DNA of 22,930 nt from positions 1-22,930 of IMG/VR virus record IMGVR_UViG_3300014903_000017. One strand, given 5' to 3'. Made by a program: the position numbers and the translations under genes. Under the pieces are notes generated by a model that was given only the letters and a program-made list of their open reading frames with translations, had not been told where the DNA came from and did no database searches. This document shows, in pieces, positions 1-2,042 of this stretch. Origin of the DNA: a virus. The stretch's first letter is position 1, and each line of letters begins with the position of its first letter.

Positions 1-657
1 CAATTCCAATATTTCAGGTATAGGTTTTCCATTTTTCCACTTAACAAAATTATGCCATCGATTTTTTATTACACTACTTCCATAAAATAAATTATGTACT
101 TTTTGAACATCTAACATCACATGGTCATTTCTGTAATGAGAAAATTCAGATAATCCCATTTCTAATATATGCTTATCGGAAAACTTAAACGCTTTTGAAT
201 TTGTTTTGTAATGACTTCTCCTATCTGTAAGTTTCCCTGCTATGGCTGTAACACTATCATAAACAACTTTATCAGCATTATTTATATAAGACTGTACAAG
301 CGATAAAGTATTTTTAAATGTAACAATGAAATCTTTAGCAATAATTTTTATGTCGCTTCGCATTCTATCTTTCTGTTCGAAATTCATAAAATCTGCAAGG
401 TTGAAAGTGCTAAAAATAGACTCAATAAAAGCTATTTTTAATTTATATTCATAAGGTGAATTTCTTAAATCTTCTATGCCGTGTAGGTATCCGCAAACTG
501 TTCTAGGTTTTGAGTTTTGGATTTCAATATATAATGAATTAAAATTAATATCAATTTTTGAAAGTTCTTTGCAGAAATTCAAATTAGCTAGATACCTATC
601 TATTTCTTTATTTAACTTAACTATATTTACATCTTCTTTTGTTGATAATTCATTCAT
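1..657 (-). CDS. DUF4942-like phage protein, 3' end beyond the window
   Basis: An open minus-strand frame of 219 codons runs from ATG at 657 to the left edge without a stop, so the C-terminus is missing. AGAGAGG (670-664) sits six bases before the ATG, which fixes the start. The N-terminal half is helical and charged. Residues about 105-195 have a pattern I associate with DUF4942 proteins of phages and plasmids: a helical block with FKNTLSLVQSYINNADKVV, then LTDRRSHYKTNSKAFKF, then a loop and MLDVQKVHNLFYG. That family's role is not established, and some members lie next to or are fused with methyltransferase-like domains. The gene stands apart from the late operon, behind a structured leader (658-1128) that may control its translation. 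The family assignment is from memory of sequence pattern only, while the gene itself is secure. Confidence 0.6.
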   Translation of the reverse strand, partial: MNELSTKEDVNIVKLNKEIDRYLANLNFCKELSKIDINFNSLYIEIQNSKPRTVCGYLHGIEDLRNSPYEYKLKIAFIESIFSTFNLADFMNFEQKDRMRSDIKIIAKDFIVTFKNTLSLVQSYINNADKVVYDSVTAIAGKLTDRRSHYKTNSKAFKFSDKHILEMGLSEFSHYRNDHVMLDVQKVHNLFYGSSVIKNRWHNFVKWKNGKPIPEILEL

Positions 658-660
658 TTT

Positions 661-668
661 AAACCTCT
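661..668 (-). promoter_or_regulatory. Ribosome binding site of the DUF4942-like gene, complementary to twin hairpin loops
   Basis: On the minus strand 668-661 reads AGAGGTTT, six bases before the ATG at 657. The sequence AAGCCTCT, present in both 25-base hairpin loops upstream (905-898 and 823-816), can pair with all eight bases, with one G.U. Confidence 0.6.
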
Positions 669-690
669 CTTTATTTTCCTAAACCATTTT

Positions 691-732
691 ATGTAAACAT
701 TTTTTACATTGCTCATGTAAACATTCTTTACA
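691..732 (-). repeat. Tandem 18-base repeat with internal inverted repeat, possible operator
   Basis: ATGTAAACATTTTTTACA (691-708) is repeated as ATGTAAACATTCTTTACA (715-732), a 24-base period with one difference. Each copy is itself an inverted repeat (TGTAAA, five bases, TTTACA). The pair lies 34-75 bases before the ATG of the leftmost gene, where a tandem operator would fit. The spacer between copies contains TGCTCAT on the plus strand, the complement of the twin hairpin loops as read in the RNA, so an RNA role is equally possible. Confidence 0.5.
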
Positions 733-735
733 AGG

Positions 736-775
736 AAAGCCTAACGCAATTCTGCAGAAATTAACGCTAGGCTTT
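736..775 (-). ncRNA. Eleven-base-pair stem-loop in the leader RNA
   Basis: On the minus strand AAAGCCTAGCG (775-765) pairs with CGTTAGGCTTT (746-736), with one G.U that would be A.C on the other strand. The 18-base loop contains TTCTGCAGAA, which can extend or dimerise. The run after the stem (CCTTGTAAAG) is not a clear U-tract, so a terminator is possible but weak. Confidence 0.5.
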
Positions 776-791
776 GAGTCCTTTTATTTAG

Positions 792-830
792 ACACGGTGA
801 AAATGAGCATTACAAAGAGGCTTACCGTGT
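792..830 (-). ncRNA. Twin hairpin A with 25-base conserved loop
   Basis: ACACGGT (792-798) and ACCGTGT (824-830) form a perfect seven-pair stem around a 25-base loop. Read on the minus strand the loop has AAGCCTCT, five free bases, then ATGCTCATTT. The same loop, also 25 bases long, recurs 82 bases away on a stem of unrelated sequence (875-911). Confidence 0.6.
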
Positions 831-874
831 TGTTTAGTCCCAACCGGGCAACCCCAATCAGGACTTATTTCGGA

Positions 875-911
875 CACCTCGGAAATGAGCATAGTTTAGA
901 GGCTTGAGATG
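875..911 (-). ncRNA. Twin hairpin B with 25-base conserved loop
   Basis: On the minus strand CATCTC (911-906) pairs with GAGGTG (880-875), six pairs with one U.G. The 25-base loop (905-881) repeats hairpin A's AAGCCTCT and ATGCTCATTT exactly, with a different five-base centre. Conserved loops on unrelated stems point to function in the loop. Confidence 0.6.
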
Positions 912-925
912 CTTGTTTTTATTCA

Positions 926-1004
926 GAATGTACCAGCGTTGGATTCGAACCGCCCTCTGCTATTTCTAGCATGCTTTCACCAAATAAGCTAGTCTGATAC
1001 ATTC
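926..1004 (-). ncRNA. tRNA-shaped element without an anticodon loop
   Basis: On the minus strand GAATGTATCAG (1004-994) pairs with CTGGTACATTC (936-926), eleven pairs with one U.G. Inside lies an A-box-like TAGCTTATTTGG with a D-arm (GCTT, nine-base loop containing GG, AAGC), then TGCTA-GAAA-TAGCA, then the B-box-like GGTTCGAATCC. The layout and the 79-base length resemble a tRNA. However, the anticodon arm ends in a GNRA tetraloop, the T-stem is broken by an AA bulge or mismatches, and no CCA follows. It therefore cannot decode. It could be a tRNA mimic, a decayed phage tRNA, or a domain of the larger leader RNA. Confidence 0.45.
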
Positions 1005-1030
1005 GTTACTTTTTCTACATAAGTAGATAA

Positions 1031-1047
1031 GCTATATTTAGTATAGC
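1031..1047 (-). repeat. Small perfect inverted repeat
   Basis: GCTATA (1031-1036), a five-base loop, then TATAGC (1042-1047). On the minus strand it lies just past the T-rich tail of the 1066-1097 hairpin. With TTGCAA (1058-1053) it could also form a poor promoter (TTGCAA, 16 bases, TATAGC), which I do not trust. Confidence 0.3.
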
Positions 1048-1055
1048 ATATTTTG

Positions 1056-1097
1056 CAAAAGAATACCCCCTAGCGGGAAGTTATAAACGCTAAGGGG
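1056..1097 (-). terminator. Terminator-like GC-rich hairpin with T-rich tail
   Basis: On the minus strand CCCCTTAGCG (1097-1088) pairs with CGCTAGGGGG (1075-1066), ten pairs with one U.G, and is followed by TATTCTTTTG. It lies past the last late gene (stop 1172-1170) and about 30 bases into the transcript from the 1135-1163 promoter. It could end the late mRNA, make a short RNA of about 70 bases, or act as an attenuator. The 12-base loop is long for a classical terminator. Confidence 0.5.
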
Positions 1098-1134
1098 AGA
1101 GGTTAGGAGGTAACACAGCTTATTGGTATAGGTC

Positions 1135-1163
1135 ATTATATTAAATGGTACGGAGTTTGTCAA
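1135..1163 (-). promoter_or_regulatory. Perfect consensus sigma70 promoter, leftward
   Basis: On the minus strand TTGACA (1163-1158), exactly 17 bases, then TATAAT (1140-1135). Transcription would begin near 1128/1127 and read into the structured RNA region and the DUF4942-like gene. It starts seven bases past the stop of the metallophosphoesterase gene, so it separates a new transcription unit from the late operon. Confidence 0.8.
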
Positions 1164-1169
1164 GTTAAA

Positions 1170-2042
1170 TTATTGAATATAAACTTCTTGCGGTTCGTAA
1201 CTAATTTTAAGTTGGTCGGCAATTTTAACATTAACAATAAATCTAATATACCCAGTTGGTCTAATTTCCCCGTCGTAAAATTCGGGGTAATCGCAATTCT
1301 TAGCATCAATACTAAAACTTTTTCTAAACCCGCCACCTCTAATCATTGGAACATATTTTACTTTAGCATCGCCTATTTTATTTAGATAGGGTCTGGGCTT
1401 CATAATGCACCCTAAAAAATGAGAGTGCGCATAGAAATAAGCGTCGGCTATTGGCACGTTTGAACTTTCCTGAATTTTGTTTAAGTCATTACCTTTTTTG
1501 TTGCCGGTTTTTGTGTGGTGTGAAATCCAAAAATCTTGCTTTCTGCATTTACTTTTATTTTTAAATATGTTTAATCTAAGGAACCCACTGTGCATACCAA
1601 GTAAAGGCAATCCGGCTTTTCTACACAAATATTCGATATTAGTATCGCCGTTTGAGAATATTTTAAAATGGTTTCCCATAATAACGCCCATGCATTTATC
1701 CGATATGCCTTTAAATAAAGGTGCGATGTGCTTGTCAATAAAATCCATGTCATCTTCATCTTCTGTGGTTAATGTGCTTACTGTCATTCTTCCGTCTTGA
1801 TATGCTTTTCTTTTTCTGGTGGTATTGTTTGTGTCCTCAAACAAATCGCCATTAATAAAAAAATATGTGTCCTCGTTATCTCGAACTTCTTTTAATGCTA
1901 TTTTAACGCCTCGAATGTCACATACTGATTTTGAGTTATCTTTTCGGAACGCTCGCTTATCTATGTGTAAATCGCAAAGGGGTAATATTGTAAAGCTTTT
2001 TTGTTTCGGTTTTATTTTTATTGTAAATCTTCCGTTAAGCAT
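1170..2042 (-). CDS. Calcineurin-like metallophosphoesterase
   Basis: The 290-residue protein carries the ordered metal-binding motifs of the metallophosphoesterase superfamily: D24-L-H26, G65-D66, G123-N-H125, H175/H176 and A205-H-S-H208. These residues hold two divalent metals and cleave phosphomono- or diesters. The substrate cannot be read from sequence. The spacing differs from lambda-type protein phosphatases, which have GDxxDRG, and is nearer the broad YfcE/SbcD-like group. No signal peptide is seen, so it should act in the cytoplasm. AAGGAGG stands before the ATG, and the start overlaps the stop of the upstream lipoprotein gene as TAATG. It is the last gene of the late operon, an unusual place for an enzyme with no obvious role in lysis. 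Roles in DNA handling or in breaking down a host signal nucleotide are guesses. Confidence 0.75.
   Translation of the reverse strand: MLNGRFTIKIKPKQKSFTILPLCDLHIDKRAFRKDNSKSVCDIRGVKIALKEVRDNEDTYFFINGDLFEDTNNTTRKRKAYQDGRMTVSTLTTEDEDDMDFIDKHIAPLFKGISDKCMGVIMGNHFKIFSNGDTNIEYLCRKAGLPLLGMHSGFLRLNIFKNKSKCRKQDFWISHHTKTGNKKGNDLNKIQESSNVPIADAYFYAHSHFLGCIMKPRPYLNKIGDAKVKYVPMIRGGGFRKSFSIDAKNCDYPEFYDGEIRPTGYIRFIVNVKIADQLKISYEPQEVYIQ

Follow-up and report, generated by a model that had tools for sequence, protein, structure and literature searches.

A phage non-coding RNA with tandem abiF-type hairpins and no AbiF gene in the available sequence: a putative decoy antitoxin

The window, by which we mean the whole stretch of DNA that was analysed, is a 22.9 kb fragment of a phage genome (22,930 nucleotides) and carries a structured non-coding region flanked by two genes. 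The gene upstream of this region (1170-2042) matches a DNA repair exonuclease PHROG, and the ORF downstream of it (1..657, minus strand) comprises at least 219 amino acids and is cut by the window end. The flanking proteins were used to look for relatives: the exonuclease and the downstream ORF had none and the terminase a single distant one (38%), so that a syntenic comparison was not possible. A sigma70 promoter (TTGACA-17-TATAAT) is located on the minus strand at 1163-1135, matches the consensus at 12 of 12 positions, and is the only exact site in the whole window, where 0.03 sites are expected by chance. No ORF of 50 amino acids or more was found between 682 and 1160. On the minus strand, region 658-1165 folds with -135.3 kcal/mol (z = -3.9), a value equalled by none of 100 shuffled sequences, while the plus strand reaches z = -2.0, with 4 of 100 shuffles as good. 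Furthermore, several stems read from the sequence have a G.U on the minus strand as their sole non-Watson-Crick pair, among them 775-765/746-736, 1004-994/936-926 and the outer one of 912-874. The preliminary description of this DNA had proposed a perfect promoter reading into about 470 non-coding bases, with single stem mismatches that become G.U on the minus strand only; each of these observations holds, and the promoter together with the strand-biased folding supports its view of a structured non-coding RNA on the minus strand.

Read from the promoter, the first element is a terminator-like hairpin (CCCCUUAGCG/CGCUAGGGGG) followed by UAUUCUUUU (1057..1097, minus strand), for which two overlapping sites were found near 1097-1066 compared with 0.3 expected, and which is a possible attenuator or late-operon terminator. 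Positions 1013-1028 were compared with the Cas12a-type repeat (Racr V-A, UUUCUACU-NNN-GUAGAU) and fit only partially, the minus strand reading UAUCUACUUAUGUAGA and the plus strand UUUCUACAUAAGUAGAU. A tRNA-like cloverleaf follows (926..1004, minus strand), composed of an extended acceptor stem, a D-arm with a GG loop, a canonical UUCGAAU T-loop and an imperfect T-stem, and having a 5-bp stem with a 4-nt GAAA loop where the 7-nt anticodon loop belongs. Two hairpins at 912-874 and 830-792, which are the subject of this study, are separated by a further hairpin (AGUCCUGAUUGGG/CCCGGUUGGGACU; 836..865, minus strand, from folding). Downstream of the pair, folding indicates a long hairpin with a weak U tract (736..775, minus strand), possibly the 3' end of the RNA or a terminator, and a repeat search identified two palindromic direct repeats of 18 nt, nearly identical and spaced 24 nt apart (691..732, comprising 691-708 and 715-732), which may serve as an operator for the next gene. 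No relatives were found among the loci compared for the terminator-like hairpin, the cloverleaf, the hairpin at 836..865, the long hairpin or the tandem repeats.

Most of these elements had been anticipated. The terminator-like hairpin and the tandem repeats were recovered as described, and the twin conserved loops correspond to a direct repeat, D1, at 791-823 and 873-905. The tRNA-shaped unit stands as a shape, since a cloverleaf descriptor fits 999-931 and only 1 of 60000 shuffled sequences, a figure to be read in the light of the descriptor having been written post hoc, after the sequence had been seen; as a tRNA it does not stand, as neither ARAGORN at its default settings, which finds no tRNA in the window, nor Rfam recognises it as one, and relaxed ARAGORN matches occur at chance level. 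Rfam at its own cut-offs returned nothing for the locus, and the models suggested for a check, tmRNA, ROOL, GOLLD and T-box, gave no match even at E 10. Sub-threshold matches to Fibro-purF, NBR2, Clostridium-PBP and ctRNA in the Rfam search were attributed to chance. The statement that no known RNA class fits the locus has to be revised, however, because the twin hairpins correspond to the motif of abiF-type antitoxin RNAs.

A permissive search of 775-925 with the Rfam abiF model (RF03085) placed both hairpins at about 14 bits (14.1 for hairpin 1 and 14.5-14.9 for hairpin 2, compared with a cut-off of 37), almost all of the core being identical. Of the validated pair of RCd22 motifs of Clostridioides difficile phage, one also falls under this cut-off (19.5 bits), and we therefore name the window hairpins abiF-type rather than members of the Rfam family. 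A covariance model (R1) was built from 22 hairpins of other phages with zero window sequence, and it matches the window at two places and nowhere else: hairpin 1 (CUC AAGCCUCUAAACUAUGCUCAUUUCC GAG; 912-874, minus strand) with 36.5 bits and an E value of 9.8e-8, and hairpin 2 (ACACGGU AAGCCUCUUUGUAAUGCUCAUUUUC ACCGUGU; 830-792, minus strand) with 27.8 bits and 2.4e-5. The same model scores the two RCd22 motifs of phiC2 at 25.5 and 15.9 bits, below both window hairpins, and gives exactly one match per contig across 366 kb of other loci. Judged by sequence and predicted pairing, the twin loops are abiF-type RNA hairpins built on the core AAGCCUCU-N-AAC-N'-AUGCUCA: AAGCC...AUGCUCA is kept in both copies, the inner pairs are A-U and U-A, and an outer stem forms around the core in both. 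The triloop is AAC in copy 1 and UGU in copy 2. Resemblance of the loop letters (CAAG/GCUCAU) to a twister-sister ribozyme was considered and rejected, there being no Rfam match and the letters being explained by the abiF match.

The hairpin is widespread in other viruses, among them many unrelated phages. A first scan of viral contigs with the pattern AAGCCTCTN{3,9}ATGCTCATTT identified four contigs (L015, L022, L032 and L033) in which a fully paired stem other than that of the window encloses the core, and one of these contigs (L015) exceeds the Rfam abiF cut-off with 41.5 bits; most matches to the first, loose patterns were unrelated coding repeats in prophages. The strict core AAGCCTCTNAACNATGCTCA is present in at least 119 viral contigs. 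In all 85 instances examined, N can pair with N' (as C-G, U-A or A-U), although the pattern does not require pairing at these inner positions. The core is invariant among the phage hairpins while the outer stem covaries, with both sides changing in seven of seven pairs over 22 hairpins, a figure biased upward because these hairpins were picked for pairing. The covariation check proposed in the preliminary description is thereby passed by both abiF-type hairpins, with a conserved loop and covarying stems, and the other hairpins of the locus had no relatives on which it could be made. In the antitoxin RCd22 it is the structure of the stem that matters, not its sequence (PMC12373285). On the bacterial side, the exact core was not found in 398 genomes of one phylum, E. 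coli genomes gave no match, and RF03085 was not found in 10 bacterial genomes, a search that is insensitive with so short a model.

Variants of the arrangement were seen in individual records. L032 (1060-1370) has, about 100 nt upstream of its first abiF motif, another that is degenerate; the two are separated by a GCUAGAAAUAGC hairpin, and the same 12 letters build the GAAA-capped stem of the tRNA-like unit in the window. A Phocaeicola plasmid (L282, 2528-2588) has a second abiF hairpin with an apical loop of about 26 nt in place of 3. Metallophosphoesterase-like genes, recognized by eye from a SAFVTSDLHLDH...GD start, lie near abiF hairpins in L146, L183, L200, L215, L249, L275 and in the window (1170-2042); this annotation is given in L275, and Pfam gave no match for L146.

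The abiF RNA is the antitoxin of AbiF, a HEPN ribonuclease of the Abi_2 family from which Cas13 evolved (PMC12373285; PMC12737573; PMC12165695); for the origin of Cas13, PMC12373285 cites the primary report of Zilberzwige-Tal et al. Known members of RF03085 include RCd22 of the C. difficile phages phi027/phiC2 and AbiFr of Prevotellaceae, with which the window shares the core and the hairpin architecture. RCd22 consists of two abiF motifs 19 nt apart and neutralises AbiF in trans (PMC12373285). The window has the same tandem pair, separated by 43 nt with an extra hairpin, and its spacers read UUUCC/UUUUC where AA[U/C]N is usual. It further differs from the family by its sub-cut-off Rfam scores, by a tRNA-like unit upstream of the pair, and by lacking an Abi_2 gene, for which no match was obtained in the 22.9 kb even at E 10. 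A toxin could be encoded elsewhere in the phage genome, of which the window covers only a part; within this fragment, the Abi_2/AbiF gene that directly follows the RNA in the RCd22-AbiF system is absent.

The same orphan state is found in nearly all related phages. An Abi_2 gene is present in only one of the 55 viral records that carry abiF hairpins, a number that includes the window's own record (0 of 5 in a first set and 1 of 50 in a second). Among eight complete phage genomes it is present in phiC2 only, the known toxin-antitoxin case, where it lies downstream of the RNA; no Abi_2 gene was found in the complete genomes of S-SZBM1, S-CREM1, S-SRM01, Redno2, Acj61, CRP-143 and PZL-Ah8, all seven of which carry abiF RNAs above the Rfam cut-off. 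On plasmids, Abi_2 is directly downstream of the abiF RNA in three of four cases. Where the genes after the phage copies could be identified they are ordinary phage genes (integrase, capsid, small terminase), which, together with the rarity of Abi_2 near phage abiF, indicates that the phage hairpins are mostly orphans. The available 22.9 kb and its relatives thus present a phage RNA that resembles an antitoxin and is accompanied by no toxin gene.

The main rival reading is that the locus is a complete toxin-antitoxin pair active in phage exclusion, in which ORF 1-657 would encode the toxin, a HEPN or AbiF-like protein that is either new or strongly diverged, and the RNA would be its antitoxin and leader. 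The order of promoter, two abiF motifs, hairpin and gene is that of RCd22-AbiF in C. difficile prophages (PMC12373285), and the ORF starts 135 nt past motif 2 with a ribosome-binding-site-like sequence of its own, as read from the sequence. Nevertheless, we regard this reading as unlikely: ORF 1-657 matches neither Abi_2 nor any Pfam, PHROG, NCBIfam or PADLOC family, its first 219 residues lack the R-[N/D/H]-xxx-H motif, and the genes that follow the motif in nearly all other phages are ordinary or unknown ones instead of Abi_2. The predicted structure of the ORF, with a mean pLDDT of 41, was unusable.

The phage hairpins are clearly associated with tRNA genes. Among 91 non-redundant phage instances, 31 have a tRNA within 250 nt, where random placement in the same stretches would give 6.4, and in 13 the hairpin ends immediately ahead of a tRNA, compared with 0.23 expected. 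The gap between hairpin and tRNA is 4 nt in S-CREM1 and S-SZBM1. A run of Rfam tRNA matches in S-SRM01 (L274, MW015081.1 near 184077), the first about 5 nt after the abiF hairpin, has no counterpart in the listed annotation of that stretch. This strong clustering, and the tRNA-like cloverleaf of the window, would suit a phage role unrelated to AbiF, for instance as processing or stability elements of tRNA arrays, the host antitoxins being similar by convergence or descent; such a role appears quite improbable to us, as AbiF-binding antitoxins have this same conserved core and many copies lie far from any tRNA. As for the cloverleaf itself, one may speculate that it is a processing site (tRNA punctuation) or a relic of the unit's origin in a tRNA array.

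With abiF hairpins present and no AbiF gene in the sequence at hand, the most likely function is that of a decoy antitoxin, and we consider it probable that the locus encodes a phage non-coding RNA whose tandem abiF-type hairpins neutralise the AbiF of the host in trans. In this model, which is built by analogy with known systems, the RNA would be expressed from its own promoter during infection and would fold into two AbiF-binding hairpins; these would bind the AbiF ribonuclease of the host in trans and keep it inhibited when infection upsets the host's own antitoxin, and the phage may thereby be protected. Several observations speak against the decoy: the hairpins score 14-15 bits against the 37 of Rfam, the triloop of hairpin 2 is UGU, the truncated ORF 1-657 occupies the usual place of the toxin, and the terminator-like hairpin precedes the abiF pair, where it would stop transcription unless the polymerase passes it or the RNA begins at a point beyond it. 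The promoter, the terminator-like hairpin and the long 5' region ahead of gene 1-657 could alternatively constitute a cis-acting leader or attenuator of that gene with no function in trans, much as the AbiD1 and AbiF leaders regulate their own genes (PMC12373285). This seems very improbable, because in other phages the abiF motif precedes many genes that are unrelated to one another, as well as tRNAs.

The proposed decoy would act in counter-defence in the same manner as pseudo-ToxI of phage PhiTE, the experimental precedent for RNA antitoxin mimicry, directed against ToxIN (PMC3475682). The two differ in the toxin, ToxN there and the HEPN protein AbiF here, their RNA folds are unrelated, and the PhiTE case was shown by experiment whereas we infer that of the window from comparison. 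Phage RNA mimicry of defence RNAs has also been demonstrated for the Racr RNA anti-CRISPRs (PMC10651486), solitary repeat units which, like the window RNA as we interpret it, are phage mimics of a host RNA that binds a defence effector, and which often lie just downstream of a promoter, as in the window; they mimic CRISPR repeats, whereas the window would mimic an antitoxin. The closest phage-borne counterpart is the abiF sRNA of cyanophage S-CREM1 (PMC9964418), located beside a tRNA in a genome without Abi_2; it has a single motif above the Rfam cut-off, compared with two below it in the window, and the available part of that report proposes no anti-AbiF role.

More generally, orphan abiF RNAs might be a widespread phage counter-defence against AbiF, the source family of Cas13, held in tRNA arrays so that tRNA processing frees the hairpin while the tRNAs make up for those that HEPN nucleases destroy, in which case the locus would be a composite of two hairpins and an anticodon-less tRNA mimic. 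We offer this extension tentatively, as an idea with somewhat less in its favour than against it. In the literature covered, which mostly excludes subscription journals, no report was found that describes orphan abiF RNAs as decoys of phages or a clustering of these RNAs with tRNAs, and RNA antitoxin mimicry by phages has so far rested mainly on the ToxIN case. If abiF decoys are indeed used by cyanophages, mycobacteriophages, T4-like and T7-like phages as well as the window phage, they would represent a broad anti-defence strategy, directed at the ancestors of Cas13, that can be recognised from sequence and tested in AbiF systems already available. Phage genome annotations of abiF RNA would then have a function, and their location beside tRNAs an explanation.

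A DNA region of lactococcal phage sk1 is reported, according to the title of a work cited in PMC12737573, to protect another phage against AbiF. The covariance model found no abiF motif in sk1, and its protection is therefore not explained by the decoy mechanism. At 27986-28033, sk1 (L280) carries a sub-threshold partial tRNA match, beyond its two tRNA matches at 27505 and 27645. Finally, L015 (IMGVR_UViG_3300006919_000318) has an orphan abiF hairpin and, 515, 197 and 62 nt upstream of its core, solitary repeats of the Cas12a type (UUUCUACUUC[A/C]GUAGA), all three sharing the strand of the hairpin. A search of this record for Cas12a found none, its control being likewise without any match; the arrangement of the repeats and the hairpin is possibly a strip of several anti-defence RNAs.
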